Positions 6,898 through 47,727 are shown, counted from the first letter of the stretch. The stretch is 64,000 bases of DNA from Candidatus Poribacteria bacterium (GCA_022822785.1 JAJEAL010000048.1:1-64000), one strand, 5' to 3'. Numbers and translations: made by a program. Notes: generated from the letters alone by a model not told the origin.

Positions 6898-8547
6898 ATG
6901 GAAAATGGAATTGATACCGCCACAGCCACAGCCTCCGAAGACCAGCAGCGAGTCACCCGATCGGCGAGCATCGTGAGTATCGCCGTGATGGCGTCGCGGC
7001 TGCTGGGTTTGGTGCGCGAGAAGGTAATTGCCTACTACTTTGCCGCCGGTGTTGGCGGCGATGCGTTCTATGCGGCGTTCCGGATCCCAAATCTGATGCG
7101 AGATCTGTTCGGCGAAGGTGCGTTGAGCAAAGCGTTTGTCACAACGTTTACGGCGACTGAGTTGGAGGACGGCGAGAAAGCGGCGTGGTGTCTGGCGAGT
7201 CGAGTTTTTAACGCAACCTTCCTTCTGCTTACGCTGATAGCGGTTTTCGGGATTTTCGCTGCCCCTGCCATCGTCGATCTGATATTCACCGGCAAAGGGT
7301 TTCAGGATGTACCGCTCGATCCGTCGGAACACTTCGGCTTTGAGTCCAAGCGTGATTTGACCGTCTATCTGACGCGGATCATGTTTCCGTACCTGATACT
7401 GGTGTCGCTGGCTGCAGTGACGATGGGGCTACTCAACAGCAAGGGCAAGTTTGGGTTGCCCGCCTCGGCGTCCTCTTTTTTCAACATCGGGTCGCTCATC
7501 GTTGGAGTGACGGGTTACTATGTCGCACCCGACCTCGGTCTACACCGGACAACGGGGATGGCGGTTGGCGTGCTGGTCGGGGGAGCGTTGCAATTCCTGA
7601 TTCAGGCACCTTCGATGCGGCGCGTTGGATTCCATTATCAGCCGCTTCTCAGTTTTCGTGATGAACGGGTGCGGCAAGTGATGCGGCTTATCGGTCCCGC
7701 GATCCTTGGGGTTGCTGCGTTGCAGATCAACGTATTGGTCAACTCGATCTTTGCATCGGAGGGTGAGGGCTGGCTGACGTGGATTAACCGTGCTTTTCGA
7801 TTAATGCACCTGCCGATCGGTGTCTTTGGTGTTGCGATCTCGACCGTTGCCTTGCCGAACCTTGCGAAATTGGTAGCGGAAGGCGACATGGCGGGGTTTC
7901 GGCGCGCTTTTTCGTATGCGCTGCGGCTGACCTTTCTGCTGACGGTGCCCGCCTCGATTGGACTGATGGTACTCGCTGAACCGATCTGTCGGCTAATTTT
8001 TGAGGGTGGGCAGGCGACCCCCTTAGACACGCAACAGACGGCGGTCGCGCTATTTTATTACGCCTTTGGTCTATGCGGTTTTTCGGCGGTCAAGATTGCG
8101 ACAGATGGATTTTATACCTTCAACGACACACGCACTCCTGCTATAATTAGTTTGTGCACCGTTGGACTCAATATCCTGCTGAATTACCTCTTTATCTACC
8201 GGATCGGATTCGACCACCGATCCCTTGCGCTGTCCACCGCCTGCACAATTACGCTGAATTTCATCGCGCTGCTGCTGCTTTTACGACGGACGGTTGGCGG
8301 CTTAGGGTTAAGCGGTATCTGGTTGCTGCTGATTAAACTCCTACTTGCCTCTGCTGTTATGGGGTATGCCTGTCTGTGGAGCTACGCACAAATCGAGGGT
8401 TGGCTCGGCGTCGAAAGCATTATCGCTCGACTCATCGGTGTATTTGTTCCGATTGGGTTGGGAATCGCTGTCGTGATGGGGAGCGCCAAGTTGATGAACG
8501 TCCGGGAGTTGGATCAGCTGTTGGGGATAATTTCTCGACGGCTGTAA
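6898..8547 (+). CDS. murJ: Lipid II flippase MurJ
   Basis: 549 aa polytopic; ASRLLGLVREKVIAYYFAAGVGGDAFYAAFRIPNLMRDLFGEGALSKAFV. Confidence 0.95.
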   Translation: MENGIDTATATASEDQQRVTRSASIVSIAVMASRLLGLVREKVIAYYFAAGVGGDAFYAAFRIPNLMRDLFGEGALSKAFVTTFTATELEDGEKAAWCLASRVFNATFLLLTLIAVFGIFAAPAIVDLIFTGKGFQDVPLDPSEHFGFESKRDLTVYLTRIMFPYLILVSLAAVTMGLLNSKGKFGLPASASSFFNIGSLIVGVTGYYVAPDLGLHRTTGMAVGVLVGGALQFLIQAPSMRRVGFHYQPLLSFRDERVRQVMRLIGPAILGVAALQINVLVNSIFASEGEGWLTWINRAFRLMHLPIGVFGVAISTVALPNLAKLVAEGDMAGFRRAFSYALRLTFLLTVPASIGLMVLAEPICRLIFEGGQATPLDTQQTAVALFYYAFGLCGFSAVKIATDGFYTFNDTRTPAIISLCTVGLNILLNYLFIYRIGFDHRSLALSTACTITLNFIALLLLLRRTVGGLGLSGIWLLLIKLLLASAVMGYACLWSYAQIEGWLGVESIIARLIGVFVPIGLGIAVVMGSAKLMNVRELDQLLGIISRRL

Positions 8548-8697
8548 TGGTGCATTAGTTCATTGATTCATTTGTTCATTGGTGTGATTAATGAATTTTG
8601 AACTAATGAACTGATGCCCTCGATTTGCTCAACAGTTACGGCATATTGCTTTGAATCCCGATTCATCGGGGTGGCGTATGCCTACTACTTTTTTGGG

Positions 8698-9462
8698 TTA
8701 GTAACTTTCACGTCGTATTACTGTTGTGGAGGGCAAACGGACGGATTTACCGTGCGACGCGTCAAGGTAACCGAGCCGCAATAGCGTGATAATCTCGTGG
8801 GAGTCGGGGATGTTAAAGCCGTCCTGAATCCGGTCTCGGTCGTCCTGACGTTCCAACGGTGCACTGACAAACTGTGTACCGATGCCCAGTCCCGTTGCGG
8901 TCAGGAGCAAATTCTGGATGGCAGCACCCATGCCCAGCCACATCCACCGCTCTCCGCCGTCGCCGGGCGGTCGTCTGGTGTTGTCCATTAGGATGAGGAT
9001 GAGCAGCGGCGAGGTGCGGACAAGCTCGGAAATCTCTTTGGCGGGCAGCTTGCCGGCGCCGAGATGGCCTAGAATGCTGAGATGTTTCGCATGTTTCAGC
9101 AGCGGCTTGAGTTTAGTTGGATCTTTACGGAACATCGGCGGAAGGTCAACGTGATCGGTCAGCAGCACACCGTCGCCGCGTTCTTCCCATTCCGCTTCTG
9201 TCAGGCGCATCCAGCGACTATTGTCGTCTAAGAAGGTACTGTCTTTGAATTGGCCGACAACGCACTCTGCGGTCAGTTCGGCGAGGGCATTTTTTCCCGC
9301 GGGTTCCCGGATAATCAGAAACTCCCACGGCTGTGTGTTGAACGGGGAGGGTGCCCACTGGGCTGCTTCTATTAATCGATCTAGATGTTCTTGAGAAATC
9401 GTGTCCGCCCGAAATTCGCCACGATGGGTCCGGCGTTGGGTGATGGCATCGAAAAGTTCCAT
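8698..9462 (-). CDS. Nitroreductase family protein
   Basis: MELFDAITQRRTHRGEF...EAAQWAPSPFNTQPWEFLII; start moved from 9504 to 9462 to relieve overlap with divergent gene. Confidence 0.88.
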   Translation of the reverse strand: MELFDAITQRRTHRGEFRADTISQEHLDRLIEAAQWAPSPFNTQPWEFLIIREPAGKNALAELTAECVVGQFKDSTFLDDNSRWMRLTEAEWEERGDGVLLTDHVDLPPMFRKDPTKLKPLLKHAKHLSILGHLGAGKLPAKEISELVRTSPLLILILMDNTRRPPGDGGERWMWLGMGAAIQNLLLTATGLGIGTQFVSAPLERQDDRDRIQDGFNIPDSHEIITLLRLGYLDASHGKSVRLPSTTVIRRESY

Positions 9463-9492
9463 AGGGATCTCCTGATATATTTGAGGAAAAAA

Positions 9493-10722
9493 ATGACACA
9501 ACAAACAGAAGTTTTAATCGTCGGCGGCGGGATATGGGGACTGAGCGCCGCTTATCATCTATCAAAGTTCGGGCAAAAGGACGTGCTCGTTCTAGAACGC
9601 AACGACGACATCGCTGCGGAGACGACACCCCAAGCGGCGGGACTCGTCGGTCAGATTCGACCGTCGGTTACCATGTTACAAGCGATCCGATACGCGCTTG
9701 ACCTGTTCTCTCAGTTTCCGAGGGAAACCGGACATGACCCCGGCCTACGCCGAACCGGCAGCTTGATGGTGGCACTCACCCCTGAGCGGATGGACGCCTA
9801 CGCCCGTCAAATTGAACGGTCTCACCGAAACGGCATTGAGGCAGATTTTGTCTCCCACGCGGAGATGGCTCGTCTTGCGCCTGCGTTAGATGTTACCCAG
9901 ATTGAGGGCGGCTATTTTGTCCCCAACGATGGATATCTCGATCCCCACCAATGCGCCCTCGCTTATGCGGCGGCAGCGAAAGATTTGGGGGTTCAGATCC
10001 AACTGAATACACCCGTAACCGGCTTCCGGCAGCGCAATGGGGAAATCCTTGGAGTAGAAACGGAAAACGGCTTTATCGGGGCAAATCACCTTGTCATCAC
10101 CGCAGGACCGTGGGGCGCAGGACTTGCCAAGAAAGTTGGTGCAACTGTGGCTGCCCAGCCGATTCGCCATCAACGCGCTCGTACAGTGCCCACCCCCGGC
10201 ATCCCCGATTACCATCCAGCCGTGCGTGTTACCGATGTTAGTTGTTATCTGAGACCTGACAAAGGGGGTTACCTCTACGGGTTCTTTGAACCGACGCCGG
10301 TCAGCATTGACTTAGAAGCGATGCCCCCTAACTTCAGGACAGGAGATATCGAACCACCTGTGGCGGTTATGGCGGAGGCGCAGAGACGGCTTGCCCCAAC
10401 GTTTCCGATTCTGAAAGATCTTGAAATCGCCGAGTATCGACGCGGTATAACTACATTCGCGCCTGACGGGGCGTACCTGATCGGTCCTGTACCGGGAATT
10501 GATCGGCTCTACTTAGCCACCGGTTGTGCCGCGCTAGGGATCGCCGGTTCCGCGGCGGTCGGTCGATGGCTCGCGAACTGGATAATCGACGGAGATTCCG
10601 GCGAAGATTTAACGATGTTTTCGCCCGAACGGTTCGGGTCGCAAGCCGCTGATCAGGGATGGCTGCGTCGAGAGAGCGAACAGTTTTACGCGAACTACTA
10701 CGGCATCCGCACTGATGAATGA
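9493..10722 (+). CDS. FAD-dependent oxidoreductase (DAO family)
   Basis: MTQQTEVLIVGGGIWGLSAAYHLSKFG; start moved from 9385. Confidence 0.92.
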   Translation: MTQQTEVLIVGGGIWGLSAAYHLSKFGQKDVLVLERNDDIAAETTPQAAGLVGQIRPSVTMLQAIRYALDLFSQFPRETGHDPGLRRTGSLMVALTPERMDAYARQIERSHRNGIEADFVSHAEMARLAPALDVTQIEGGYFVPNDGYLDPHQCALAYAAAAKDLGVQIQLNTPVTGFRQRNGEILGVETENGFIGANHLVITAGPWGAGLAKKVGATVAAQPIRHQRARTVPTPGIPDYHPAVRVTDVSCYLRPDKGGYLYGFFEPTPVSIDLEAMPPNFRTGDIEPPVAVMAEAQRRLAPTFPILKDLEIAEYRRGITTFAPDGAYLIGPVPGIDRLYLATGCAALGIAGSAAVGRWLANWIIDGDSGEDLTMFSPERFGSQAADQGWLRRESEQFYANYYGIRTDE

Positions 10723-10749
10723 AACGTAAAACGTGACGCGTAAGTTAGT

Positions 10750-11667
10750 TTGGACGCGCACAATACAGTGACGAAAAGGTCAACGATGACGAAACAGCAG
10801 AGCTATACAGACGAAACAACTTCCACCCCTGAACCCATTGGACGTCAGCGAGCGATACGGGTTGATGTACCGACGAATCTAGACAACATCCGGGTCATCC
10901 TGTTCGAGCCGCGTGAGCCGGGCAACATCGGGTCCGCGGCACGTGCGTTAAAGGGGATGGGACTCTCCCAGCTCTACCTGGTCAGTCCTGTCCCGTTTCT
11001 TGAGGAGAAACCGACATGGTATATGGCGCACGGTGCAACCGACGTTATTGAGAACTGCTGCGTCGTAGATACCTTAGAAGAAGCACTCGAAGATATTCAG
11101 TTTCTGGTCGGCACGACCCATCGGCGACGTGACCCAAGGCTGCCACCTTCTGTCTCGGCGAGGGAAGCGGCACAGGAGATCGCTTCCATTTCGCAGAATC
11201 AGCGGGTTGGACTGATGTTTGGGCGCGAGGATTTTGGGCTATCCACCTCCCAAATTAGTCGCTGCCAACTGATAGCGAGCGTTCCGATGGCGGCGAAGAA
11301 CCCTTCCCTAAATCTAGCGCAGGCGGTACAGGTCTTTGCCTACGAAGTCTTCCTCGCCAGCACAGGCGACCTCCCGCCGACGGAATTGGAGCACGCCGAT
11401 GTCAATGAGATTGAGGCGTTTTATGGTCGGATTACAGCGTTGTTGCAACGGATCGGCGTTACCCCCTACAATTACGATTGGGAGACCTATCTGAAATCGT
11501 TGCGGCGTGTGTTTTCGCGGACACGGTTGGAAGAGCGTGACATCGCCACGTTAGACATGATCTTCTCGACAACACTTCGTTACATCACCCGACTCAACCG
11601 CCAACTTGAAGACCGATCAGACACACTTCCCGCCGAACCCTCAAACGAGGACGACCTCAGCACTTAA
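10750..11667 (+). CDS. SpoU/TrmJ-type RNA 2'-O-methyltransferase
   Basis: VILFEPREPGNIGSAARALKGMGLSQLYLVSP; MFGREDFGLS. Confidence 0.9.
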   Translation: MDAHNTVTKRSTMTKQQSYTDETTSTPEPIGRQRAIRVDVPTNLDNIRVILFEPREPGNIGSAARALKGMGLSQLYLVSPVPFLEEKPTWYMAHGATDVIENCCVVDTLEEALEDIQFLVGTTHRRRDPRLPPSVSAREAAQEIASISQNQRVGLMFGREDFGLSTSQISRCQLIASVPMAAKNPSLNLAQAVQVFAYEVFLASTGDLPPTELEHADVNEIEAFYGRITALLQRIGVTPYNYDWETYLKSLRRVFSRTRLEERDIATLDMIFSTTLRYITRLNRQLEDRSDTLPAEPSNEDDLST

Positions 11668-11986
11668 CCTTAATCTCATCATTCTCAACGACGACTTCGT
11701 AAGATCTGACGCGAAGCCGCTCGTCCGTCAGACAGCTCCCATCTGTGACATTGTAGGCGTAACTGTGAACCGGGCAGATGACCGCGCCGTTCCTGACCCG
11801 CCCCCTACCGAGCGGACCTAGCGCATGGGCACACGCATTGTCTAGCGCGTAGAAATTCTCATCGTCAACGTTGAAAACCGCAATTCGTTTCCCTCTGACG
11901 GTGAACGCTTTACCCCGTCCCTGCCGAATATCAGATGTTTTTGCAACTGCTACAAAAGACAACATAAAACTCTCCTTTCGTATCAA
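11657..11986 (-). CDS. Rieske [2Fe-2S] domain protein (nitrite reductase small-subunit-like ferredoxin)
   Basis: CAHALGPLGRGRVRNGAVICPVHSYAYNV; real start may be 11965. Confidence 0.88.
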   Translation of the reverse strand: MIRKESFMLSFVAVAKTSDIRQGRGKAFTVRGKRIAVFNVDDENFYALDNACAHALGPLGRGRVRNGAVICPVHSYAYNVTDGSCLTDERLRVRSYEVVVENDEIKVKC

Positions 11987-12005
11987 ATGTTGATATCGCG
12001 TTCAT

Positions 12006-13073
12006 TCACTTTCGACGTTGATCCAAGAGCATCCGATAGATATCTTCAAATAGCCGCACATCGGTTAGGGTATCCTCGCTAGATGATCTGAACGGTGTGT
12101 CATTCCGAATGTTTTCGATAAAATGTTCTGCCTCGCGTCGGTACGCCCATGTCCAGTTCGGTTTCGGGATTGGGCGTGAAATCTCCTGTGTTTCGCCAGC
12201 CCGGTAGACCTCGACCTCTGCGGGGGTGTTTTTCAGCAGAAGCGGCGGTGCCCATGTATGCACCCAGCCATCCTCAAAGTAGATCTGCGTATGCTCATCC
12301 CATCGATAGTGCGAAACTCTCCCCGTTTCGAGGATTACGCGCACACCTACCATGTCGAAGATGATGACGCCGCTGTAACCGTTGTCGTCGAGATCCACGT
12401 GCTTGACCTGCACCTGATCGCCGGCGTCCAAGAACCAGCGCAGCAAGTTGAGGTTGTGGGTGTATTGCTGCAGGTAGCTCAAGTAAGGGCGCACCCATTC
12501 CGCCGGCAGCCAGTCAGGCGTTTGTGCGGGTGCTTCCGGCTTTGGTGCATCACTCGTCACCATCGGTGTGTCGAGGTTACAGATCCACTCCCCGCAGAAA
12601 CCGTGATTCCGGACGTAGGTCAACCCTCCCAACTCGCCGGTCGCTCGAAACTCGTCCACCTTAGCCCTGACCAGTTCGTTGCCGGCGTCGTACCGTTTCA
12701 TATAGCCGACCATAAGTTTTGTGCCGGCAGCTTTCCCGGCGGCAACAATTGACTCCGCTTGCTGGATGGAGACCGCCATCGGTTTCTCCATGAAAACCTG
12801 CTTTCCCGCGCTGAGCAGGTCTTTCGCAATCTCTCCTTGCAGGGCAAAGTCGGCGGACACCGCCACCGCTTCGATGTCGGTGTCCGCTGCCAGTTCGGTG
12901 TGGTCGGCGTAGAGACGGGGGATTCCCCATCGCTGCTGCACCTGTTGGCCAAGTTCCGGACGCACTTCCGCCAAACTGATTAGCTCACAGTTGGGGAGGC
13001 TGGTGAAGTTCGGGATATGTACCTTCTGCGCCATGAAGCCGCAGCCGACATAACCCAGTTTGATAGGTTCCAT
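12006..13073 (-). CDS. Gfo/Idh/MocA family oxidoreductase
   Basis: KLGYVGCGFMAQKVHIPNF; GKQVFMEKPMAVSIQQAE. Confidence 0.92.
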   Translation of the reverse strand: MEPIKLGYVGCGFMAQKVHIPNFTSLPNCELISLAEVRPELGQQVQQRWGIPRLYADHTELAADTDIEAVAVSADFALQGEIAKDLLSAGKQVFMEKPMAVSIQQAESIVAAGKAAGTKLMVGYMKRYDAGNELVRAKVDEFRATGELGGLTYVRNHGFCGEWICNLDTPMVTSDAPKPEAPAQTPDWLPAEWVRPYLSYLQQYTHNLNLLRWFLDAGDQVQVKHVDLDDNGYSGVIIFDMVGVRVILETGRVSHYRWDEHTQIYFEDGWVHTWAPPLLLKNTPAEVEVYRAGETQEISRPIPKPNWTWAYRREAEHFIENIRNDTPFRSSSEDTLTDVRLFEDIYRMLLDQRRK

Positions 13074-13137
13074 TGTATCTGTTTTCTCCCAAAGTAAAGT
13101 CTCCGCGAATCTTCACGAATGATTTATTATAGAGAGG

Positions 13138-14610
13138 TTACGGCATACGGCGTATGCCTACTGCTTTTGAAACGAGACCAACGGTTAGGAAATTTGCGGC
13201 TAATCCCCACACACCGGCGTGGATCCCCATCGGTTTCGTTGCGACCCCCAGTCCAGCGAGGTTGGCGAACATTATCCCCAACGCGATACAGGTGCCGACA
13301 AGCAGTCCCGACAGAACGGCATCGGTGCGGAGCGATTTCAGGTGGACGCCGAGGAAGATGGCGGGCGCCACTTGGCACAACAGTTCGAGTTTTATCTCAG
13401 TCAACCGCCAGAGCGTTTGTGGGAGTTGGATCGCCAGAAAAATCAGTATCGCCATCAATCCCCACGAGAAAACTTTTCCTGTAACCGTCAGATGATGCTG
13501 GGATACATCGGGACGGATGCGTTTATATAGGTCCTGCGTAAAGACGGAGGAGACGGCAAGCAGCGCGGAATCAACGGTGGACATAATTGCAGCCACGGCA
13601 GCGCACAGAAAGAGGATTAGCAAAATTCGGACGCTAGGGAGTCGTTCCGCCATGTCATTTAACAGGAACAGTGCGACCTGTTCACTGCCGAGTCGATCAA
13701 GCCCCGGAAACTGTGCCGCGCCGACGAGACCGACGACGAACATGAAGAAGGTGGTGAATATCGGCATGAAGACCATAATCTGGAAGGAACGCCGCAGCGT
13801 CTGTTCGTCTTTCGCCGCATAAATGCGTTGTGCGGCGTGTGGATAGATCGACGGTCCGAAAAAGACGATTGTCAATGTGCTCAACCATGTGAGTTTGAGC
13901 TTCAGCGGCGGTGGCTGCCAGAAGGTGGGTTGGGTTGCCATCAATTTCTCGGCGGTGGCGGGTAGTCCACCGTATTGGTAGCTGATTACGCCAAAGATGA
14001 AGATACACCCCGCCAACAGGAGTACCCCTTGGATGGCGTCGGTCCATGCGACGCTTCGCAAGCCGCCGAGTGTTTCGTAGATCAGCATGATTATTGACAA
14101 GACAATCACGCCTTGGACAAATGTTACGTACCCGCCCGTTGATGCCTCAACGATGTAGCCAATCGCTTTCAGGTTGCTGAGGATATAATTGCCGAGCGCG
14201 ATAATGAAGATAACGGTTGAAAGTGCCGTTAGTGTCGTAGATCCGAACCGTTGCTGGATGTAGTCGCCGATGGTGATATAGCCGTGTTGGCGGGAGAGAC
14301 GATGGAATTTCGGTGCATACACTAGATACGCGGCGAGGATTGACATCGAAAAGGTGACACTCACTAAAAAGAAATACCCGGTTCGATATACGTTGCCCAC
14401 GAAACCGATAAATGTGAGGCCACTATATTGTGTAGCATAGAGAGTGAGGAACAGAACAAACAGACCGAGTCCCCTGTTGCCGAGGTAGAAGTCTGCCATC
14501 GAATTCTCTCGTCGTGCAAATCGACCGGCAAGCCCGACGAGGATGAGGGACGCTAAGTAGATCCCCATAAAGATGACGCCACCGGGACCGAGTAGCGCTG
14601 TTGTGTTCAT
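13138..14610 (-). CDS. Sodium:solute symporter family protein
   Basis: 490 aa polytopic; TLGGLRSVAWTDAIQGVLLL; AAIMSTVDSALLAVSSVFTQDLY. Confidence 0.93.
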   Translation of the reverse strand: MNTTALLGPGGVIFMGIYLASLILVGLAGRFARRENSMADFYLGNRGLGLFVLFLTLYATQYSGLTFIGFVGNVYRTGYFFLVSVTFSMSILAAYLVYAPKFHRLSRQHGYITIGDYIQQRFGSTTLTALSTVIFIIALGNYILSNLKAIGYIVEASTGGYVTFVQGVIVLSIIMLIYETLGGLRSVAWTDAIQGVLLLAGCIFIFGVISYQYGGLPATAEKLMATQPTFWQPPPLKLKLTWLSTLTIVFFGPSIYPHAAQRIYAAKDEQTLRRSFQIMVFMPIFTTFFMFVVGLVGAAQFPGLDRLGSEQVALFLLNDMAERLPSVRILLILFLCAAVAAIMSTVDSALLAVSSVFTQDLYKRIRPDVSQHHLTVTGKVFSWGLMAILIFLAIQLPQTLWRLTEIKLELLCQVAPAIFLGVHLKSLRTDAVLSGLLVGTCIALGIMFANLAGLGVATKPMGIHAGVWGLAANFLTVGLVSKAVGIRRMP

Positions 14611-14636
14611 ATTGGGCGTTTCCAGAGCTTAGAGTT

Positions 14637-14664
14637 GTGGGGAACAACGATTGTTGTTCCCTAC
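14637..14664. repeat. Palindromic element GTGGGGAACAACGATTGTTGTTCCCTAC
   Basis: Near-perfect palindrome; same family as 4506 and 14942. Confidence 0.7.
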
Positions 14665-14677
14665 GATGCTTAGGTTT

Positions 14678-14929
14678 TTATGATTCAGAGTCATCGTCAT
14701 CTTTGGCGGACACAGACCAGTAGCGGCGGAGACAGAACGCAACGATAACGGCGTACAGGATTGTCATACAGAAGCTGTAGAACGCCCAAGGCGGGAACCC
14801 GTGAATCTGTGTCGCCTGGGATTCTATGAAAAACCAAGGGACGGTCGATACAAGGAAGAATGTCAGTACGAAGTATAGTTTTGCTCGTGTCATTTTTTTA
14901 TCCGCTGCGAATTTAGGCCCTGTTGACAT
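14678..14929 (-). CDS. Small two-TM membrane protein, possible partner of the adjacent symporter
   Basis: Hydrophobic segments plus position immediately upstream of the symporter gene. Confidence 0.65.
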   Translation of the reverse strand: MSTGPKFAADKKMTRAKLYFVLTFFLVSTVPWFFIESQATQIHGFPPWAFYSFCMTILYAVIVAFCLRRYWSVSAKDDDDSES

Positions 14930-14941
14930 TTTGCAGTAGTT

Positions 14942-14990
14942 GTAGGGAACAACGATCCTCCGTTCCGAGAGCCCCGGAGTTGTCCCCTAC
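14942..14990. repeat. Palindromic element GTAGGGAACAACG...GTTGTCCCCTAC
   Basis: Inverted termini GTAGGGAACAAC / GTTGTCCCCTAC. Confidence 0.6.
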
Positions 14991-15246
14991 GACCCCCCCT
15001 ACCGGGACACAGAATCGAGTTATTTTTAACCAGCCGCAATATTGATCAAATTGTTCCAGATCTGCCGGATTTATGACGACTCGCGCCTCTTTGCGATCAA
15101 TCGTCTCGACATAATTTAATAGGTGACCGAAAACCGTCTATCGTGGAAGTGGGTAAAGTGACTTCGGTATGTTGCCGGTAACTTCACGAGCCCATGTTCC
15201 TTTTCCTGTGCACAAAATAATGACAACCACTGTTTCTCGTTTCAAT

Positions 15247-32289: not shown

Positions 32290-32309
32290 AACTGAGTTTG
32301 CGTAAAGGC

Positions 32310-32580
32310 TATGAAAGGACAAAGTAAGCGGGTCGAGTATTCTAATCAGAGAGGCTGCGTCACCGGCTGAAAGCGCATCTTTAGAATGGGTCGCCGAATT
32401 TCATCCTGGAGCCGCCGAGTTGAACGCTAATTTAGGCAAGTAGGCTCGTGCCGGGAATTTCACCGTTACTGAAATAGTTAATGAAGTGGGCAGATGTAAT
32501 ATCTGCCAATAAGGGTGGTACCGCGGAAGGTTTTGACGCCTGTCACTTTCGTCCCTTGGACGGAGTGATAGGCGTTTTTT
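32310..32580 (+). promoter_or_regulatory. T-box leader for pheST, specifier UUC (Phe) at 32400-32402, T-box motif AAGGGTGGTACCGCGG at 32511-32526
   Basis: Canonical GGGTGGTACCGCGG antiterminator sequence, Stem I-like AGAGAG region, GAATTTCATCCTGGAG specifier region, then a terminator directly before pheS. Confidence 0.88.
32536..32580 (+). terminator. Rho-independent terminator of the pheS T-box leader
   Basis: CGCCTGTCACTTTCGTCC-CTTG-GACGGAGTGATAGGCG followed by TTTTTT. Confidence 0.88.
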
Positions 32581-37490: not shown

Positions 37491-38219
37491 CTATCTCGTT
37501 CCAACCGTCCACTCACTAATTTCCCAGCCCGATTCTATTGCAACCTGTCGTAACCCTTTGCTCGGATTGACGACAATTGGGTTGCCAACGCATTCTAGCA
37601 TTGGTAGATCTGCACGGCTATCGCCATAGGCATAGCTTTCAGCGAGGTCAACATTATGCTGTTCGACAAAAGCTTGGATTGCGCGAACTTTTTCCGTCTC
37701 GCTAAGCGGCAGCGTGGTCAACTCTCCTGTAAATTTTCCAGCTGCCTCCTCAAGTTGCACAGTTAACGCGGCATCGGCTTGAAGATAGTCGGCGAGAGGT
37801 TGTACGATAAAATCAAGAGATCCGGTCACAAGCACAATTAGATCTCCTCGGTTTTGGTGTTCACGAATACACTCTAACGCGGCGGGGAATAACTTTGAGT
37901 GTACATACGTCTCGAACTGCTCGCCGGCAAGCTGTTTGACTGCTTCCGATTTCAGTCCTTGATAGTTGCGATAGAAAACTTGGTTGAATCTTGTACGACT
38001 CACTTTATCTAGGAAAAAGTAGTAGACAACCTTCAACGCAAACCAAGCGAGCCAAAAGGGACGAAAAAAGGTAGGAAGCAGGCAGGAACGGAATTGGACG
38101 TAATAGTGGACGATGGTTGTGCTCACGATGGTGCCATCAACATCGAAGAAAGCAGCCGTTTTTTTCTTTTCGGGGTGAACATCTCTTAACTCGTTTACCA
38201 CGTGAACCCCTCCGGTCAC
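37491..38219 (-). CDS. HAD-IB family phosphatase (SerB-like)
   Basis: AAFFDVDGTIVSTTIVHYYVQF; LVTGSLDFIVQPLADYL; YGDSRADLPMLECVGNPIVVNP. Confidence 0.92.
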   Translation of the reverse strand: MTGGVHVVNELRDVHPEKKKTAAFFDVDGTIVSTTIVHYYVQFRSCLLPTFFRPFWLAWFALKVVYYFFLDKVSRTRFNQVFYRNYQGLKSEAVKQLAGEQFETYVHSKLFPAALECIREHQNRGDLIVLVTGSLDFIVQPLADYLQADAALTVQLEEAAGKFTGELTTLPLSETEKVRAIQAFVEQHNVDLAESYAYGDSRADLPMLECVGNPIVVNPSKGLRQVAIESGWEISEWTVGTR

Positions 38220-38259: not shown

Positions 38260-41200
38260 TTATTGAGGATCTGCGCTCCGCGTAACGGAACGGGACAATG
38301 CTTCAATCTCAGATTTGACAGTGTCCGTAAGCTTTCTGTAAGTTTCCTGTTCCAACCCTGAAACGGCCTCCGTCTCTCCTACTTCATGTCCGCTAGGCGG
38401 CGCAATAGGTTTACCGAAAATCACCTGAACGCGGCTCTTACGTGGTAGATTTCTGCCTTTAGGCAGCGCGTGATAGGTGCCGTTAATGTAAACAGGAATA
38501 ATCGGGGATCCAGTTTCATAAGCCAACAAGCCGAGTCCGGGTTTGAACGGTTGCAGCTCCCCGGTGACGGAACGGGTGCCTTCGGGATAGATTAGCAAGC
38601 ATTCGTTCTGTTTCAGTACCTCCTGCGAAATTCGGAGTCCCTGCAAAAAATTAGCATGTCGATCAAACGGTACGAATTTAAGTAGTTCGCCGGAGAACCA
38701 TGATTTGAAGCGGGTGCTAAACCAATAGTCTTTTGCGGCGAGAACCCGTAGGCGTTTGGATTCGCTGCCCAAGACAGTCATGACCGCAAGGGTATCAAGA
38801 TGACTTGAATGATTGGCAGCAATGATATACGGTTGATCTCGCGGTAGGTTCTCCAGTCCGGTGCATTTAATCGAGAAGTAACACCGATAGATAGCCCACA
38901 CACTGAATCGGAATAGCCCAGCAAGTGCCGCCGATAGCAGCGAGGATTCAGATCGCTGAATATGGGCAAGTACTTCTTTATCAATGGGGTCGGGGGTAGA
39001 CTCAGATTGCAGTGTTTTAACGGTTTCCGTCACGTCGCCCACCGTCTGAATTTTAGCAATCAGCTCGTCAGGAATCGAGCGTTGTAGTCTCGATTCTAGC
39101 AGGAGCAGTAATTCTACGCGCGCCATTGAATCCAGTCCAAGTTCTGTTCCTAAGTTGCTGTTCAAACGAATCTGGTCTGCCGGCAGCCGCGCCAAACGAC
39201 TGAGCTCAGAAATAATAACCTCCTCAACGCCCGAAGGCGTATCGACTGGCATCGTTGGCTTCAAAGCGTCCTTATGTCCATCGGTCTTCAGCGCGTCCCT
39301 TGCGGAATCAGGTTGGGGAACCGCCTCCGCTTGTTGAGAGAGTTCTGCTCCCAAAACCGCCTTAACACGTTGGCGATCTATTCCCACATCTGAGGTCTTG
39401 GGCAGTTCAGTCTCCCAAAAGTGAACGGTCTGAATATGCTGATAGGTGGGCAGATTTTGAGCGCGCTCCTGAATGTGTTGGTGGATGGCCTTTTCAACTT
39501 CAGTCCTGTCCCGATCATCACCGCGGACTGGGACGATTACAGCGTGAGCCGCTTCAAACATATTATCCGTACTCATGCCAACGACGCAAATCTCTGAAAT
39601 CAAGGAACTGTGTCGGTAGAGTGTTTCGAGTTCGATCGGGTAGATATTCTTACCGGCGCCGGACACAATTACATCTTTGCTGCGTCCAGTGAGATACAGA
39701 TAACCGTCCTCATCAAAGTAACCCAAATCGCCCGTATAGAGCAGCCCGTCCCGAATCACCTGTTCTGTCACAGCTTGATTCCGATAGTACTCCTGCATCA
39801 AGCTTGGACTGTGTGCGACAATCTCACCGATACCATCCGCGTCGGGGTTGATAATCTGGAGCTTCACCCCCTGAACCGCGGGTCCAACTGAACCCCGCTT
39901 GCTTTTGTGGTGGGGGTTCACACTGAGAACAGGTGAGGCTTCTGTCATCCCGTAACCTTGGTAGATTGTTAATCCGAGCTCCGTAAATCGATCATATATT
40001 TCGTCCGGCAAGGCGGCCCCCCCGCTAACTAGAACGCGGATATGTCCGCCTAATGCAGCTTGAATCTCTTCAATAACCTCTGGGGTAAGCGGCGCTTCCA
40101 TCGCCTCAGGAGATTGTACGACATACCGCTTAATCGCATCATAGAGCAGTTGGAACAAACGTGGCACCCCAATGAGAACGGTGGTTTCGGTTTCCCGCAT
40201 GGTTGCCAAAATCGTGGTCGGTCTCAAACTGTTGGTGTATGTGACGGTTGTACCGGCATAAATCGACATTAAGAAATTGCAACAGAACCCGAGAGCGTGG
40301 TATAACGGGAGTACGGAAAGGAATCGATCCGTATCTTCCGGAGGCAATGCCTGTGAAACCGCCACAACGTTTGCAATAAAACCCCTATGCGAAAGCATCG
40401 CCCCTCGTGGATCTACAGTTGTCCCCATCGTGAAGATAATAGACGCAATCGTATCTGGATCGATGTGTACCTCCGGGAAATTATCAGGAACCGAAGGGAG
40501 TTCCGAGTTCGCGGGAGCGGAGGTCTGTGTTTGTCCGTCGCCAAAAGGCTGGCAAAAACGATTTATGTCCAAAAACACCGGTGATTCGGCCTCCGCATTC
40601 GGTTTTATCTGTGCCTTGTGCAGGCGGGCAACGCAGGTTTCCGATGTCAAAATCGCCTTGGCTTCAGTGTAATTCGCAAGCGCGAAGATTTCGTCTTCAG
40701 CGGTTTGCGGATCAATTGGAACAACCACGACGCCAATCTGCACAGCGGCTAAATAAGCGACACCCCACTCCGGTTGATTCTCTGCAAAAAGGATTACCCG
40801 ATCGCCTTTGCGATAACCGTGTTCCCACAGCACAAAAGCAATCTGACGCGAGGCCTCATAGAGTTGACGGTAAGAATAGCGGACCCACTCTTTATCTCGT
40901 TGCATCTGTAACGCAATTTTATCCGGAATAGATTCGGCCTGTTGAGCGACCAAATCTATCATTGTCAGCTCCCGCAACGGTTTAGAGGGCTCATCAATAG
41001 GTTGCTCATCGCCGGCCTCCACTTCGGTTGAGACAGAATCCGCCGGTAATTCGTCGATTTGCTCGGGTGTGGGTTCGCTGATCCGCTGCCGTCCTGATTC
41101 GTCGCCTAGCTTGAGAAAGTGTCGCTTAATGCCTGGAATGTGTATCTCTTGGAGATAATCCCGCCAATCAATCCGCGATATATCAAAGTTGAAAAGTTGT

Positions 41201-42789
41201 TGATCTGAAGGAGAGAGGGCATGGTAAAGCGCTTCTGTTTTGCCGATTTCAAATTCAAAACTGAGGCGGACATACGGACCGTAAATCTGCACATAATGTA
41301 GCAAGGTCTCAATGGCATTCCTTTTCACGGCGATTCGCCGCTCCTTCCGTTTTGCCCATCTCAACGGAATTCGACCAAGCCAACTGCTAGCGATATCGAG
41401 CAGGCGCATTTTATAGCGGAAATCACTCTGAAATTTCGCCTCATCTGGAAATTTCCAGACAGGAACAGGTATCGGTTTGCCGTTATCCAGCAATGGCTGT
41501 CGCGTAAAGTAGTCGTGCGTGATAGTGACGATATCCCCAAAAGTCAGAGGGTTGCGCGATCCGCTCGCAATGTGATAGACCTCAATGCCCCGCTGGTGAT
41601 AGGTCTGTACCGTCGCTGCTAACATCGCATTGATAACGAAATCAGCCGGGATAATATCAAGGATACTATTTGGGTCGCCGGGAAAGTCGGGTAAACGTCC
41701 CTTGCCAAAGCCAACAATCAGTGGATCTGCCATACGAAGCGCGCCACCGAGCCATCCCGGCTCCGGATCTTCGAGACTACTTTCCATAATCGATTGGCGA
41801 ATAATCGCGGTCGGTAGGTCACCTCGCATCTTGGTAATCATCTGCTCACCAAGTGCTTTCATATAGGTATACGTATCGTTCCATCCTCGCGCATGGGCAC
41901 GTTTCAAACCTTCATCAATTAAACGCTGTTCAACCCATTTCTGCCGCTGGACACTAATCTGTCTGTTTAGCCTTTCTTCTGTAACCGCACCTAAATTTCG
42001 TAGTGCTTCACGACGGAACTGATTCAGTTTCTCAGGTTGATTCGCTTCATTCCGGACCTGCTCACTCAAACACTGGATATCTTCAATTTCAGCGTCAAGG
42101 GTGCATGGGATTGCCTCCCCCTTCTCCGCTTGATACTGTTCGGCATAAGTTTCGTAAGGGGGGTGCAGTTCTTCGGGCACTCTTCCCGGTCGGGCACCAC
42201 GGACATAAGCTGTCGACACGTGCAGAAAAATCGCGTTGTTACAGCGCTTTGCCAGTTCAACTGCGTACTTTGCCCCAAGTACATTGCTCTGCAAGGACGC
42301 ATCGATGGGTGGGTCGAATTTTACGAGGCCGCCACTGTTAATGAAAATTTGTACTTCGCGCTGCAACGTTTCATAATCGGCATCGGAAAGCCCGAGTCGC
42401 TCGTAAGCCAAATCGCCTTCTACCGCGTAAACTTTTTCGCGAACCCATTCATCAAATCGTTCTCCATGAATCTGTTTAAGGTTCGCAAAAGCACTTGAAG
42501 TAAATACATCATTTTCTAGCCGATCCGTCGCGGTACGCGTTTCTCCATTCGTTCCGGTCTGACTGCGGATGAGTAGATAAATCCGCTTCACATCAGGAAG
42601 CGCACTGAGTATTTTCGCAACGAGCGCTTGACCTAGAAATCCAGTCGCACCGGAGATTAATATCACTTTACCACAGAAGAATTCACCTATTGTCTGCATG
42701 CTGTCCTTCGTTTTGAGCCAAATTCGAGAAATGCTGTAATCAGTGTGTGATTCGTCAAAAACTGTAGCGGTTACCTGCAATTGCTTCAA
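38260..42789 (-). CDS. Multidomain fatty-acyl/thioester reductase (SDR/FAR) - AMP-binding-like - ACP - PlsC acyltransferase
   Basis: GKVILISGATGFLGQALVAKIL; YTYMKALGEQM; FAR_C-like FEFEIGKTEALYHALSPSDQQLFNFDISRIDWRDYL; AMP-binding GYGMTEASPVLS, YTGDLGYFDEDGYLYLTGRSKDVI; ACP LGLDSMARVELL; PlsC NHSSHLD, YPEGTRS. Confidence 0.92.
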   Translation of the reverse strand: MKQLQVTATVFDESHTDYSISRIWLKTKDSMQTIGEFFCGKVILISGATGFLGQALVAKILSALPDVKRIYLLIRSQTGTNGETRTATDRLENDVFTSSAFANLKQIHGERFDEWVREKVYAVEGDLAYERLGLSDADYETLQREVQIFINSGGLVKFDPPIDASLQSNVLGAKYAVELAKRCNNAIFLHVSTAYVRGARPGRVPEELHPPYETYAEQYQAEKGEAIPCTLDAEIEDIQCLSEQVRNEANQPEKLNQFRREALRNLGAVTEERLNRQISVQRQKWVEQRLIDEGLKRAHARGWNDTYTYMKALGEQMITKMRGDLPTAIIRQSIMESSLEDPEPGWLGGALRMADPLIVGFGKGRLPDFPGDPNSILDIIPADFVINAMLAATVQTYHQRGIEVYHIASGSRNPLTFGDIVTITHDYFTRQPLLDNGKPIPVPVWKFPDEAKFQSDFRYKMRLLDIASSWLGRIPLRWAKRKERRIAVKRNAIETLLHYVQIYGPYVRLSFEFEIGKTEALYHALSPSDQQLFNFDISRIDWRDYLQEIHIPGIKRHFLKLGDESGRQRISEPTPEQIDELPADSVSTEVEAGDEQPIDEPSKPLRELTMIDLVAQQAESIPDKIALQMQRDKEWVRYSYRQLYEASRQIAFVLWEHGYRKGDRVILFAENQPEWGVAYLAAVQIGVVVVPIDPQTAEDEIFALANYTEAKAILTSETCVARLHKAQIKPNAEAESPVFLDINRFCQPFGDGQTQTSAPANSELPSVPDNFPEVHIDPDTIASIIFTMGTTVDPRGAMLSHRGFIANVVAVSQALPPEDTDRFLSVLPLYHALGFCCNFLMSIYAGTTVTYTNSLRPTTILATMRETETTVLIGVPRLFQLLYDAIKRYVVQSPEAMEAPLTPEVIEEIQAALGGHIRVLVSGGAALPDEIYDRFTELGLTIYQGYGMTEASPVLSVNPHHKSKRGSVGPAVQGVKLQIINPDADGIGEIVAHSPSLMQEYYRNQAVTEQVIRDGLLYTGDLGYFDEDGYLYLTGRSKDVIVSGAGKNIYPIELETLYRHSSLISEICVVGMSTDNMFEAAHAVIVPVRGDDRDRTEVEKAIHQHIQERAQNLPTYQHIQTVHFWETELPKTSDVGIDRQRVKAVLGAELSQQAEAVPQPDSARDALKTDGHKDALKPTMPVDTPSGVEEVIISELSRLARLPADQIRLNSNLGTELGLDSMARVELLLLLESRLQRSIPDELIAKIQTVGDVTETVKTLQSESTPDPIDKEVLAHIQRSESSLLSAALAGLFRFSVWAIYRCYFSIKCTGLENLPRDQPYIIAANHSSHLDTLAVMTVLGSESKRLRVLAAKDYWFSTRFKSWFSGELLKFVPFDRHANFLQGLRISQEVLKQNECLLIYPEGTRSVTGELQPFKPGLGLLAYETGSPIIPVYINGTYHALPKGRNLPRKSRVQVIFGKPIAPPSGHEVGETEAVSGLEQETYRKLTDTVKSEIEALSRSVTRSADPQ

Positions 42790-43222
42790 GCAATATAGGT
42801 TAGGTTAAACAGGAACCGTGACACCCTACATCACACCGGCCATTTGTGTTAGTATAAGCAATTAAATGGCATTCTGTCAATAGCAAAACGCGATATGAAT
42901 AGGGCAATTGCATCCGTTTATTATTGTCTGAATCGCGGATTAAACGGACTCATCGGAGGGCATGGAATGTCACTGGATTGCCGATTGTCTATACATCTAT
43001 CGCATTGGATGAATGCACCCAAATAGAGGAGATCACCGCTTATTGCTTAACCCTACCTTTTTGTCTGAATCAGGATTTTCAGGATGAAAGGATTTACAGG
43101 ATAATAAGGCGATGTGTAGCATGCGGTTCCAACCGCCTTCACATGTGATTGCCCTAGTGATACAAAAACGCTTAATTCGGTTCGGATTCATCTGTCTCTA
43201 AATATAATTCTCTAATACCTAA

Positions 43223-43574: not shown

Positions 43575-45461
43575 TTAATCAACGATGGTGAGCCGAAAGT
43601 ACCGAAGTGCCTCCTCAATTATGGCTTTGAGACTTTCATCACCAGCCTTCTCCGCGAGTCTCAATGCGGTTTGGAAATCCTGCTTCGCCTCCGAAGTGCG
43701 ATTTAACGAAGCCTTCGCAGCTCCCCGACTGATGTAAGCATCGGCATAATCAGGTTCAAATTGTATCGCCTTATCGAAATCGCTTATCGCAGCAACGTAT
43801 TGCCTGAGGTGGTACTTCGCAAGTCCTCGATTGTTGTATGCCTCGGCATAATTTGGTTTGAGTTGTATCGCCTTATCGTAATCGCTTATCGCAGCAACGT
43901 ATTGTCCCAAGTCTGTCTTCGCAAGTCCTCGATTGCTGTATGCTATGGCATCATCGGGTTCGAGTTGTATTGCCTTGTCGTAATCCTTTATCGCAGCAAC
44001 GTATTGTCCCAAGTCTGCCTTCGCATTGCCCCGATTGCTGTATGCCTCGGCAAGATCGGGTTTGAGTTGTATTGCCTTATCAAAATCACTTATCGCATCA
44101 ACATATTGCCTGAGATGGTACTTCACATCGCCCCGATTGTTGTATGCCTCAGCAAAATCGGGGTCAAGTTGTATCGCCTTATCGTAATCGCTTATTGCAG
44201 CAAGGCGTTGTCCCAACTCTGCCTTCACATTGCCGCTATTGATATAAAGTTGTATCGCCTTATCGTAATCGCTTATCGCAGCAAGGTGTTGACCAAGGTG
44301 GTCCTTAGCAACTCCCCGATTGCTGTATGCTATGGCAAGATCGGGTTCAAGTTGTATCGCTTTATCGAAATCGCTTATCGCAGCAACATATTGTCCCAAA
44401 TCTACCTTCGCAGCCCCTCGATTGCTGTATGCGTTGGCATAATCTGGTTTAAGTTGTATTGCCTTATCGAAATCACTTATCGCAGCGGAGTATAGACCTA
44501 GTTTCGCCTTTACTACACCGCGATTGTAGTAAGCATCGGGATAATCTGGTTTAAGTTGTATTGCCTTATCGAAATCACTTATCGCAGCAACGTATTCCTC
44601 CAAGTCTGCCTTCGCAACTCCCCGACTGACGTAAGCATCAGCAAGGTCGGGTTCAAGTTGTATCGCTTTATCGAAATCGCTTATCGCAGCAACGTATTCC
44701 TTCAAGTCTAATTTAGCATTACCCCGATTGTAGTATGCGTTGGCATAATCTGGTTTAAGTTGTATTGCCTTATCGTAATCCTTTATCGCAGCAACGTATT
44801 CCCCCAAGTCTGCCTTCGCAGCTCCCCGATTGCTGTATACTTCGGCAAGATCGGGTTTAAGTTGTATTGCCTTGTCGTAATCGCTTATCGCAGCAACGTA
44901 TTGACCAAGGGATGCCTTCGCAGCCCCCCGATTGCCGTATGCCTCGGCATAATCAGATTTGAGTTGTATCGCCTTATCGAAATCCTTTATCGCAGCAAGG
45001 TGTTGCCCAAGGGATGCCTTCGCAGCCCCCCGATTGTTGTATGCCTTGACATCATCAGGTTCAAGTTGTATCGCCTTATTGAAGTCGCTTATCGCAGCTA
45101 AGTGTTGCCCTAGGTCTGCCTTCGCAGCTCCCCGATTGATATATGCATTGGCATCATCAGGTTTGAGTTGTATTGCCTTATTGTAATCACTTATCGCAGC
45201 AACGTATTGCTCCAAGTCGTCTTTCGCAAGTCCTCGATTGATATATGCATTGGCATAATCAGGTTTAAGTTGTATCGCTTTATCGAAGTCGCTTATCGCA
45301 GCAACGTATTGTCCAAGTTTTCTCTTCGCAGCTCCCCGATTGCTGTATGCCTTGGCAGCCATGGCATAATCAGGTTTAAGTTGTATCGCTTTATCGAAGT
45401 CGCTTATCGCAGCAACGTATTGTCCCTCGATTGTTGTATGCCTTGACATCATCAGGTTCAA
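43575..45461 (-). pseudogene. C-terminal TPR array of the protease-TPR gene, in a shifted frame relative to the upstream half
   Basis: About 18 near-identical 34-aa TPR units (AISDFDKAIQLKPDYAxAYxNRGxAKxxLGQYVA); apparent N-terminus MNLMMSRHTTIEGQ arises out of frame at the junction. Confidence 0.75.
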
Positions 45462-45930
45462 GTTGTATCGCCTTATTGAAGTCGCTTATCGCAGCGGAGT
45501 ATCGCCCCAAGTCTGCCTTCGCCTCTCCCCGATTACTGTATGCCTTGGCATAATCAGGTTTGAGTTGTATCGCTTTATCGAAGTCGCTTATCGCAGCAAG
45601 GTGTTGCCCAAGGGATGCCTTCGCAGCCCCCCGATTGTTGTATGCCTTGACATCATCAGGTTCAAGTTGTATCGCCTTATTGAAGTCGCTTATCGCAGCT
45701 AAGTGTTGCCCTAGATCTGCTTTCGCAGCTCCCCGATTGATATATGCCTTGGCAGCATCAGGTTTGAGTTGTATCGCTTTATCGAAGTCGCTTATCGCAG
45801 CAACGTATTGACCAAGGTAGTACTTTGCAAAGCCCCGATTGATATATACATTGGCATCATTGGGTTTGAGTTGTATCACCTTGTTATAATCACTAATGGC
45901 GGCAAAGTATTGTCCAAGGGCTGCCTTTGT
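43590..45930. repeat. Tandem array of 102-bp TPR-coding units
   Basis: Repeated (caa)gttgtatcgcctttatcgaaatcgcttatcgcagcaacgtattgtcccaag... every ~102 bp. Confidence 0.92.
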
Positions 45931-46644
45931 ATTTCCCTGCATGAAGTATGTCTCCGCAGATGTAGAGCGATTATCTTGAGGTAAAGGGGTCACTGTCCCA
46001 GATCGAGCAAGTAGGGTCTTAAGATAGAGAGAAGGAATTGCAAAATTGAGATTCTGTCCACCTTCAACAACCGTGTAGGAGACACCGATGACTTCGCCTT
46101 TCTTATTCAGCACGGGTCCACCACTACTTCCCGGTGGGATCGGTGCCGTCATCTGAATCCGTCCTTTCGCCTGTCCACCGTGGCGACTGCTAATGATGCC
46201 ATCCGAGAAAGCCCCTTCTAAGCCCTTTGGGTTACCGGCAACATAAACCGTCTCACCAATTTTGACAGCATCGCTGTTGCCAAGGGGCAGCGGGTTGATA
46301 CCGGGGACCGAGACTTTTAGGAGGACAAGATCGTCGTACGTGCTGTGTGCGGTAGAGCCTTCAATTTCATAGGTATTATGCTTGCCGACTAATTTTGCAG
46401 TGCCGCTGGCTGCACCGGCAATCACATGGTAATTGGTGGCGATGAGGTTGGATTTGACAAAGAAACCGCTGCCAAAACCGAGGATTTTGCCGTTGCTATC
46501 CTGCATCTCTAAATAGACGGTGGCGGCTAACGCTTTTTCAGCGATATCTGGAACAGTCTGTGCGGATGTGATGCTTGTTGCGCAGAAGAGCAACACCATA
46601 AAGGTAACCAAAGGCAACCACAATGATTTGTTCTGATGTGTCAT
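45391..46644 (-). CDS. Secreted trypsin-like (HtrA/DegP-type) serine protease with C-terminal TPRs, truncated by frameshift
   Basis: Signal peptide MTHQNKSLWLPLVTFMVLLFCATSITSAQT; GSGFFVKSNLIATNYHVIAG; TYDDLVLLKV; IPPGSSGGPVLNKKGEVIGV; ORF extends to 46797. Confidence 0.85.
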   Translation of the reverse strand: MTHQNKSLWLPLVTFMVLLFCATSITSAQTVPDIAEKALAATVYLEMQDSNGKILGFGSGFFVKSNLIATNYHVIAGAASGTAKLVGKHNTYEIEGSTAHSTYDDLVLLKVSVPGINPLPLGNSDAVKIGETVYVAGNPKGLEGAFSDGIISSRHGGQAKGRIQMTAPIPPGSSGGPVLNKKGEVIGVSYTVVEGGQNLNFAIPSLYLKTLLARSGTVTPLPQDNRSTSAETYFMQGNTKAALGQYFAAISDYNKVIQLKPNDANVYINRGFAKYYLGQYVAAISDFDKAIQLKPDAAKAYINRGAAKADLGQHLAAISDFNKAIQLEPDDVKAYNNRGAAKASLGQHLAAISDFDKAIQLKPDYAKAYSNRGEAKADLGRYSAAISDFNKAIQLEPDDVKAYNNRGTIRCCDKRLR

Positions 46645-46660
46645 TGAAAGAATTCCTTTA

Positions 46661-46881
46661 TAGGACTTACGCTGTTGAATGCTCAAAGCCAACCCCCTTA
46701 GCCCCCCGCAAGTTGAGCGTAGCGAAATCCCGATTTTATCGGGGCGGAGGAAAAGGCACATCGCAACGCCAGATGAATCGAACAAAACTCCAGCCAATCG
46801 GTAAGTTTATAGTAGGGCGATTTATCGCCCGTGGTCACGCGCAATGAATTGCGCTACTACAAACCGAAGGGCGTAAGTCCT
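46661..46881. mobile_element. MITE-like element with TAGGACTTACGC...GCGTAAGTCCT inverted ends
   Basis: Inverted termini, internal palindromes (GGGCGATTTATCGCCC; CCCGATTTTATCGGG); tip shared with 43223-43376 element. Confidence 0.72.
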
Positions 46882-46926: not shown

Positions 46927-47727
46927 TCAGAAGCTGACATATCCACCGCAAACAGGAATGCATTGCCCCGTTACATAATCCGAGAGATCTGTGACAAGAA
47001 ACTCGACAACCTTCGCGCAATCCTCTGGCACCCCCAAACGACGGAGTGGGATCTGCGGCAACAGTCTTTCCCGCGTTTCGGGACTATTCCTGCCGCCGGC
47101 AATACCACGGGATGAAAGGATGTAGCCCGGCGCGATACAGTTCACATTAATTCCGTGTGGTCCCAGTTCAGCTGCGAGGAGGCGAGTGTACTGCACAACC
47201 CCCGCTTTTGAAACGCTGTACGCCATACCTGCCCCGCTCCAACGGCTCCATAACCCCGCCTGCGAGCTGACGTTGACAATCCGTCCGTAACCCGCTTCTT
47301 TCATTGGAGTGCTCACCGCCTGGCAGCAGAAAATCGCGCTGGTGAGGTTTATCTCCATAATGTAATTGTAATACTCCTCCTCAGTGTCAGATGCCATCGA
47401 CGATTTAGGTCGGCCTAACGCACCACCGGTGTTGTTGACGAGGATATCAATTCGTCCCAGTTTGTCTACAACCTCGCCAACCATCGCAAAAACGGCATCG
47501 CGCTGCGTAACATCAACCTCAAAACCCAGCGACCGACGCCCAAAATTCTCGACCTCTGCCATGACTGTCTCCGCCGTCAACGCTTCGTCATACTCTTGCG
47601 CTGCGTCGAGATCTATGTCGTTAATCACAACGTCCGCTCCCAATTGAGCGAGGTGAAGCGCGTAAGCCCGACCCAATCCACGCGCCGCGCCGGTAACAAG
47701 CGCAACCTGTCCATCTAATTTACCCAT
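46927..47727 (-). CDS. SDR family oxidoreductase
   Basis: VALVTGAARGLGRAYALHLAQLGADVVIND; YSVSKAGVVQYTRLLAAELGPHGINVNCIAPGYI. Confidence 0.93.
   Translation of the reverse strand: MGKLDGQVALVTGAARGLGRAYALHLAQLGADVVINDIDLDAAQEYDEALTAETVMAEVENFGRRSLGFEVDVTQRDAVFAMVGEVVDKLGRIDILVNNTGGALGRPKSSMASDTEEEYYNYIMEINLTSAIFCCQAVSTPMKEAGYGRIVNVSSQAGLWSRWSGAGMAYSVSKAGVVQYTRLLAAELGPHGINVNCIAPGYILSSRGIAGGRNSPETRERLLPQIPLRRLGVPEDCAKVVEFLVTDLSDYVTGQCIPVCGGYVSF

Follow-up and report, generated by a model that had tools for sequence, protein, structure and literature searches.

The 64,000 nt stretch of DNA analysed here, which we call the window, comes from a sponge-associated Candidatus Poribacteria bacterium (GCA_022822785.1 JAJEAL010000048.1:1-64000). 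Its minus strand contains a gene for a multidomain enzyme of the ElbD type, with a fatty acyl-CoA reductase (FAR), an AMP-binding domain, an acyl carrier protein (ACP) and a PlsC-type acyltransferase in one polypeptide. Judging from its sequence, ether-lipid synthesis is our best guess for the role of this gene. The AMP-binding domain does not have the A10 lysine, which is catalytic in acyl-adenylating enzymes, and few of the related FAR-linked proteins keep this residue. The explanation we favour, with moderate confidence, is an ElbD-type ether-lipid enzyme whose AMP-binding domain has most likely moved past efficient adenylation. The gene and its domains are as follows:

38260..42699, minus strand: ElbD-type multidomain enzyme of 1479 aa, counted from the likely ATG (1509 aa if translation began upstream, at TTG 42789)
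41623..42657, minus strand: FAR NAD(P)-binding domain (NAD_binding_4, E-value 1.6e-60), with GATGFLG, STAY and YxxxK motifs
41110..41313, minus strand: FAR C-terminal (Sterile) domain, from Pfam
39784..40947, minus strand: AMP-binding (ANL) N-domain, with a deviant A3 loop (FTMGTTVDPRG) and conserved A5 and A7
39391..39633, minus strand: AMP-binding C-subdomain, as the stretch matched by Pfam
39382..39384, minus strand: A10 position, with Gly (residue 1136 of 1509) in place of the catalytic Lys of acyl-adenylating enzymes
39022..39219, minus strand: ACP with the phosphopantetheine Ser (LGLDS), Pfam PP-binding
38485..38871, minus strand: PlsC-type acyltransferase, with NHSSHLD and YPEGTRS motifs

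The Pfam matches along the protein are NAD_binding_4, Sterile (4.2e-13), AMP-binding (3.9e-77), AMP-binding_C (1.4e-07), PP-binding (4.2e-08) and Acyltransferase (4.8e-26), all of them above the cut-off. By sequence, the closest solved structure for the first part of the protein is the fatty acyl-CoA reductase 7eoz (5e-83), and the closest ones for the second part are acyl-CoA synthetases. These Pfam matches are far beyond chance and bear out the original prediction, made from the sequence alone, that a FAR, an acyl-CoA-synthetase-like domain, an ACP and a PlsC domain share a single polypeptide. The motifs which it quoted (YTYMK as YxxxK, LGLDS, NHSSHLD and YPEGTRS) are all found in the protein, and a domain search, of the kind which it proposed as a check, detects homology to both FAR and PlsC-type acyltransferases. 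The catalytic residues of the reductase are very well conserved: Ser and Lys in 94/94 FARs, Tyr in 92/94.

The A10 motif behaves differently from these catalytic residues. It reads V-G-I-D-R in the window protein, where the canonical form is G-K-[IV]-x-R; the Arg which follows is retained. Only eight of the 84 ElbD-type sequences, in which the AMP-binding domain is linked to a FAR, keep the A10 Lys. It is present in 3/61 sequences at the level of the poribacterial order and in 2/15 from Acidobacteriota. The entropy of this column, 3.27 bits, is in the 98th percentile of the 844 columns of the alignment, and at least four changes between Lys and other residues are needed on a 30-row tree. The A5 Thr/Glu, A7 Asp and A8 Lys are present in 84/84 sequences, and so are the ACP Ser and the PlsC His, Asp and Glu. 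As controls, we have considered the acyl-CoA synthetase paralogues encoded in this genome, together with four proteins of the AMP-ACP-PlsC type which have no FAR (one from Rubrobacter, two from Ilyobacter, one from Fusobacterium): all of them keep a canonical A3 and the A10 Lys. It is because A10 Lys decays while the ACP and PlsC residues are invariant, and because FAR-less homologues and paralogues keep it, that we think efficient adenylation has most likely been lost from the AMP-binding domain. The A10 Lys of adenylating enzymes has a role in adenylation, not in thioesterification. In a natural case, module 3 of CysK, whose A domain lacks this residue, does not load its substrate and the carrier is loaded in trans (PMC7966384). 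Self-loading with fatty acids by the usual route is improbable for the enzyme in the window. Loss of efficient adenylation would mean that the ACP is loaded in trans, or that the AMP-binding domain is limited to the thioester half-reaction. More tentatively, the AMP-binding domain of FAR-linked ElbD-type proteins may have ceased to activate fatty acids, keeping its nucleotide-site and thioester-side motifs but losing the adenylation lysine and, in Latescibacterota, the entire C-subdomain along with ACP and PlsC. It could now be a thioester-exchange or substrate-holding module, or part of an ether-forming step which does not depend on AGPS, with acyl groups supplied in trans.

We have also looked at an AlphaFold model of the AMP-binding domain (pLDDT 89.5). 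It superposes more closely on structures in the thioester conformation (root mean square deviation about 3.7 A for 5x8f) than on adenylation structures (10.5 A for 5bus). This fit agrees weakly with a lost adenylation, but we do not take it as proof, since AlphaFold may pick either conformer.

The ether-lipid explanation is based on several features: the ElbD architecture, the linkage and fusion to a HAD phosphatase, the association with AGPS in one relative, the presence of related FARs in AGPS operons, and a YegS-type lipid kinase in Acidobacteriota, where it adjoins the ElbD-type gene. The reference case is Myxococcus xanthus, whose ElbD has FAR1-like, acyl-CoA synthetase (ACS), ACP and AGPAT-like domains and is accompanied in its operon by a HAD-family gene, elbB; elbD mutants lose most of the ether lipids (PMC9131029, a 2022 review). 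In the scheme we propose, the ACP would hold a fatty acyl thioester, with the acyl group brought in trans, and the FAR would reduce an acyl thioester to fatty alcohol or aldehyde. PlsC would transfer an acyl group to an acceptor of the glycerophosphate type, and removal of a phosphate by the adjacent HAD-IB protein would give alkyl- (or alkyl/acyl-) glycerolipids.

The HAD-IB phosphatase gene lies immediately downstream of the ElbD-type gene. The neighbouring features are:

37491..38219, minus strand: HAD-IB phosphatase gene, ElbB-like (TIGR01490), 40 bp downstream of the ElbD-type gene
42851..42880, minus strand: promoter-like TTGACA-18-TATACT upstream of the ElbD-type gene, near-perfect and sigma-70-like, by consensus match only
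46927..47727, minus strand: short-chain dehydrogenase/reductase (SDR) gene (adh_short), upstream, separated from the ElbD-type gene by two TPR genes

Of 90 related loci, 67 have such a HAD gene on the same strand, at most 2.5 kb downstream (70 when three with an over-extended start are included), and the gap is usually below 15 bp. Six loci from Latescibacterota and Gemmatimonadota (L108, L109, L111, L114, L116, L120) contain natural FAR-AMP-HAD fusions of about 1200 aa. They do not have the C-subdomain, the ACP or the PlsC domain, and their A3 loop is badly degenerate (FTRGMAAESHG). The fusion places HAD in the same pathway as FAR-AMP.

A link to AGPS is found in a relative of the same order (genome G016, locus L142), where three genes on one strand encode, in this order, the ElbD-type protein (1475 aa), AGPS and an SDR. 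This AGPS is 52% identical to the one in locus L125, which matches a solved AGPS at 2e-152. In loci L125-L128, the FAR stands alone (42-45% identity to that of the window protein) and is accompanied by a putative divergent acyltransferase and AGPS; a same-strand SDR is present in L125, L126 and L128, and a YegS-type kinase in L125 and L127. In the FAR tree, whose deep branches are weak, the FARs of L125-L128 are found among ElbD FARs, near that of the FAR-AMP-HAD fusion (100/98). The protein of 650 aa between FAR and AGPS has no PDB or PHROG match, and one homologue has a sub-threshold Acyltransferase match; we call it a divergent acyltransferase with caution. By gene content, these compact operons correspond to a peroxisome-like ether-lipid pathway. 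That of L125 spans 7795-15115, and the hosts include Latescibacterota, Gemmatimonadetes and Truepera.

The assembly to which the window belongs (G000) is a metagenome-assembled genome of Candidatus Poribacteria, with 5.6 Mb in 147 contigs, and we have found no ether-forming enzyme in it. For AGPS there are only partial matches of about 31%, of the D-lactate dehydrogenase/GlcD type. The FAD oxidases of this genome were rejected as AGPS candidates, as they match D-lactate dehydrogenase and glycolate oxidase best. DUF2229 (PlsA/Ger) gives no match, while four control genomes are positive. CarF (Lipid_desat, PF10520) and WS/DGAT give no match either in this genome or in any control genome. The wax-like synthesis considered in the original prediction finds no support, with an empty control for WS/DGAT. 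PlsY (PF02660) has no match in G000, while 8/14 control genomes are positive.

Several of these results weigh against our proposal and have to be set beside other explanations. The A5, A7 and A8 residues are retained, a few relatives still have the A10 Lys, and M. xanthus ElbD is reported to show ACS and ACP activities in vitro (PMC9131029). The A10 Lys may be dispensable in the ElbD family; if M. xanthus ElbD also lacks it, adenylation without that lysine is possible. Together with the Arg conserved after A10, these points would suit a fully canonical ElbD, whose AMP-binding domain activates free fatty acids as adenylates and passes them to its own ACP even though the residue is missing. We regard this as possible but rather unlikely, with A10 among the most variable columns, Lys very rare at the order level, and a deviant A3 loop as well, when both motifs are intact in paralogues and FAR-less homologues. 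The missing AGPS and DUF2229 matches (and that of Lipid_desat, whose control was empty) also count against an ether product, as does the case of Pontiella isolates, which have ElbD homologues and no detected ether-bound lipids (PMC11868695). The FAR and acyltransferase activities of M. xanthus ElbD have not been confirmed in vitro (PMC9131029). The enzyme might then supply fatty alcohol or aldehyde for a non-ether product (alkyl esters, for instance, or some other lipid), while PlsC would serve ordinary phospholipid acylation. The ElbD-AGPS-SDR tandem and the AGPS operons with related FARs speak against this explanation, and in M. xanthus it is ElbD that yields most of the ether lipid, largely without AGPS, whose contribution is small (PMC9131029). 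On balance we doubt it.

An acyl-ACP synthetase-acyltransferase like Aas/AasS, which only recycles fatty acids and carries a vestigial FAR, appears very improbable. The order AMP-binding-ACP-PlsC is that of the FAR-less homologues, and the NCBIfam Aas models do match, but with scores of 213.9 and 152.8 against equivalog cut-offs of 1221 and 1349. Furthermore, the FAR catalytic residues are near-invariant, whereas the A10 Lys decays. The ElbD-type ether-lipid enzyme with a changed AMP-binding domain remains our preferred explanation. The original prediction had spoken of a full route to a fatty alcohol or aldehyde with transfer of acyl groups. The domains for it are indeed present, but "full" is too strong, because neither AGPS nor Ger/PlsA was found in the genome, the adenylation lysine is missing, and two of the activities are unconfirmed even in M. 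xanthus.

The open reading frame at 38260-42789 is real, with 1509 aa counted from TTG 42789 and no internal stops. Nevertheless, the gene likely starts at ATG 42699, giving 1479 aa, because this codon is preceded by an AAGGA ribosome site and relatives start at the equivalent Met. Purifying conservation over 11 sequences, with relatives 52-83% identical to the window protein, indicates that the gene is functional. At E<=1e-100, matches are found in 71/73 genomes of the same order, 5/10 genomes from other orders of the class and 0/2 from other classes. The gene is thus a core gene of its order, mostly inherited vertically, with no recent acquisition.

The FAR is not always fused. Several Poribacteria, among them members of family f7 in the same class, have a separate FAR gene just upstream of AMP-ACP-PlsC. 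Split-FAR loci are L068, L070, L076, L100, L103, L106, L107, L110, L117, L115, L118, L119, L121 and L143. A single change suffices to explain the fused and split states in the sample of the 30-row tree; the split loci across the wider set imply that fusion has been gained or lost more than once.

The upstream SDR is a possible partner of the ElbD-type enzyme. It is directly upstream in five relatives (80-92% identity). We have rejected it as the alkyl-dihydroxyacetone phosphate (DHAP) reductase partner: it is 22-28% identical to the AGPS-linked SDRs, and its adjacency is conserved in close relatives only. Two TPR-rich genes intervene here (43575-46797, minus strand), one of them with a trypsin-like protease domain; the five closest relatives shown have neither at the equivalent place. 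Elsewhere in the window, a T-box leader (32302-32559, plus strand; Rfam RF00230, 105.9 bits) is found between rplT and pheS-pheT, and its specifier region GAAUUUCA fits the Phe UUC codon.

Our comparison bears on the mechanism by which ElbD makes ether lipids without AGPS, and ElbD homologues serve to predict ether-lipid producers in metagenomes. It separates the ElbD residues which selection keeps (FAR, ACP, PlsC) from the adenylation lysine, which is not maintained. As a caution, ACS activity should not be assumed from ElbD homology. The natural fusion, the ElbD-AGPS tandem and the pattern of residues make the mechanism directly testable. As far as the compared literature shows, these two arrangements and the decay of the A10 Lys in FAR-linked ElbD-type proteins are new details which constrain it.

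We have compared this system with those already known. ElbD of M. xanthus (elb operon, MIBiG BGC0000871) has, by its described architecture, the same FAR-ACS-ACP-acyltransferase order, and both clusters contain a HAD-family phosphohydrolase gene (ElbB there, HAD-IB here). The window protein lacks the A10 Lys; M. xanthus ElbD is compared with it by domain order. M. xanthus has AGPS (MXAN_1676), not found in the window genome, where CarF has no match either (nor has it in the controls). No NAD-dependent epimerase gene like elbA or elbE is present among the adjoining ORFs, which are TPR, trypsin-like and adh_short SDR genes. Such a neighbour does not strictly define ElbD, because the elb genes are unlinked in some myxobacteria (PMC9131029). 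A genome-contig scan returned no loci from Myxococcota, and the matches of a plasmid search were limited to FAR-less relatives and other AMP-ligases. The FAR-less proteins of Rubrobacter, Ilyobacter and Fusobacterium share the AMP-binding, ACP, PlsC order, but have no FAR and keep a canonical A3 and A10. The peroxisome-type ether pathway (FAR1, GNPAT, AGPS, alkyl-DHAP reductase) resembles the L125-L128 operons with their related FARs and the L142 tandem; it differs from the window genome in having AGPS. ElbD homologues are found in many Black Sea phyla (PMC11868695), and elbD-type clusters have been published for sponge Poribacteria and Acidobacteriota by Loureiro et al. 2022 (PMC9426513), who credit Lorenzen et al. 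with the earlier identification of a poribacterial homologue. The text compared here mentions neither the loss at A10 nor an AGPS tandem nor a fusion of FAR-AMP with HAD. The phyla, the architecture and the flanking hydrolase and oxidoreductase genes it describes agree with ours. The resemblance to ElbD suggested in the original prediction is borne out as far as architecture is concerned. The window gene belongs to this elbD-type group: it is a member of an already described kind, not a discovery.

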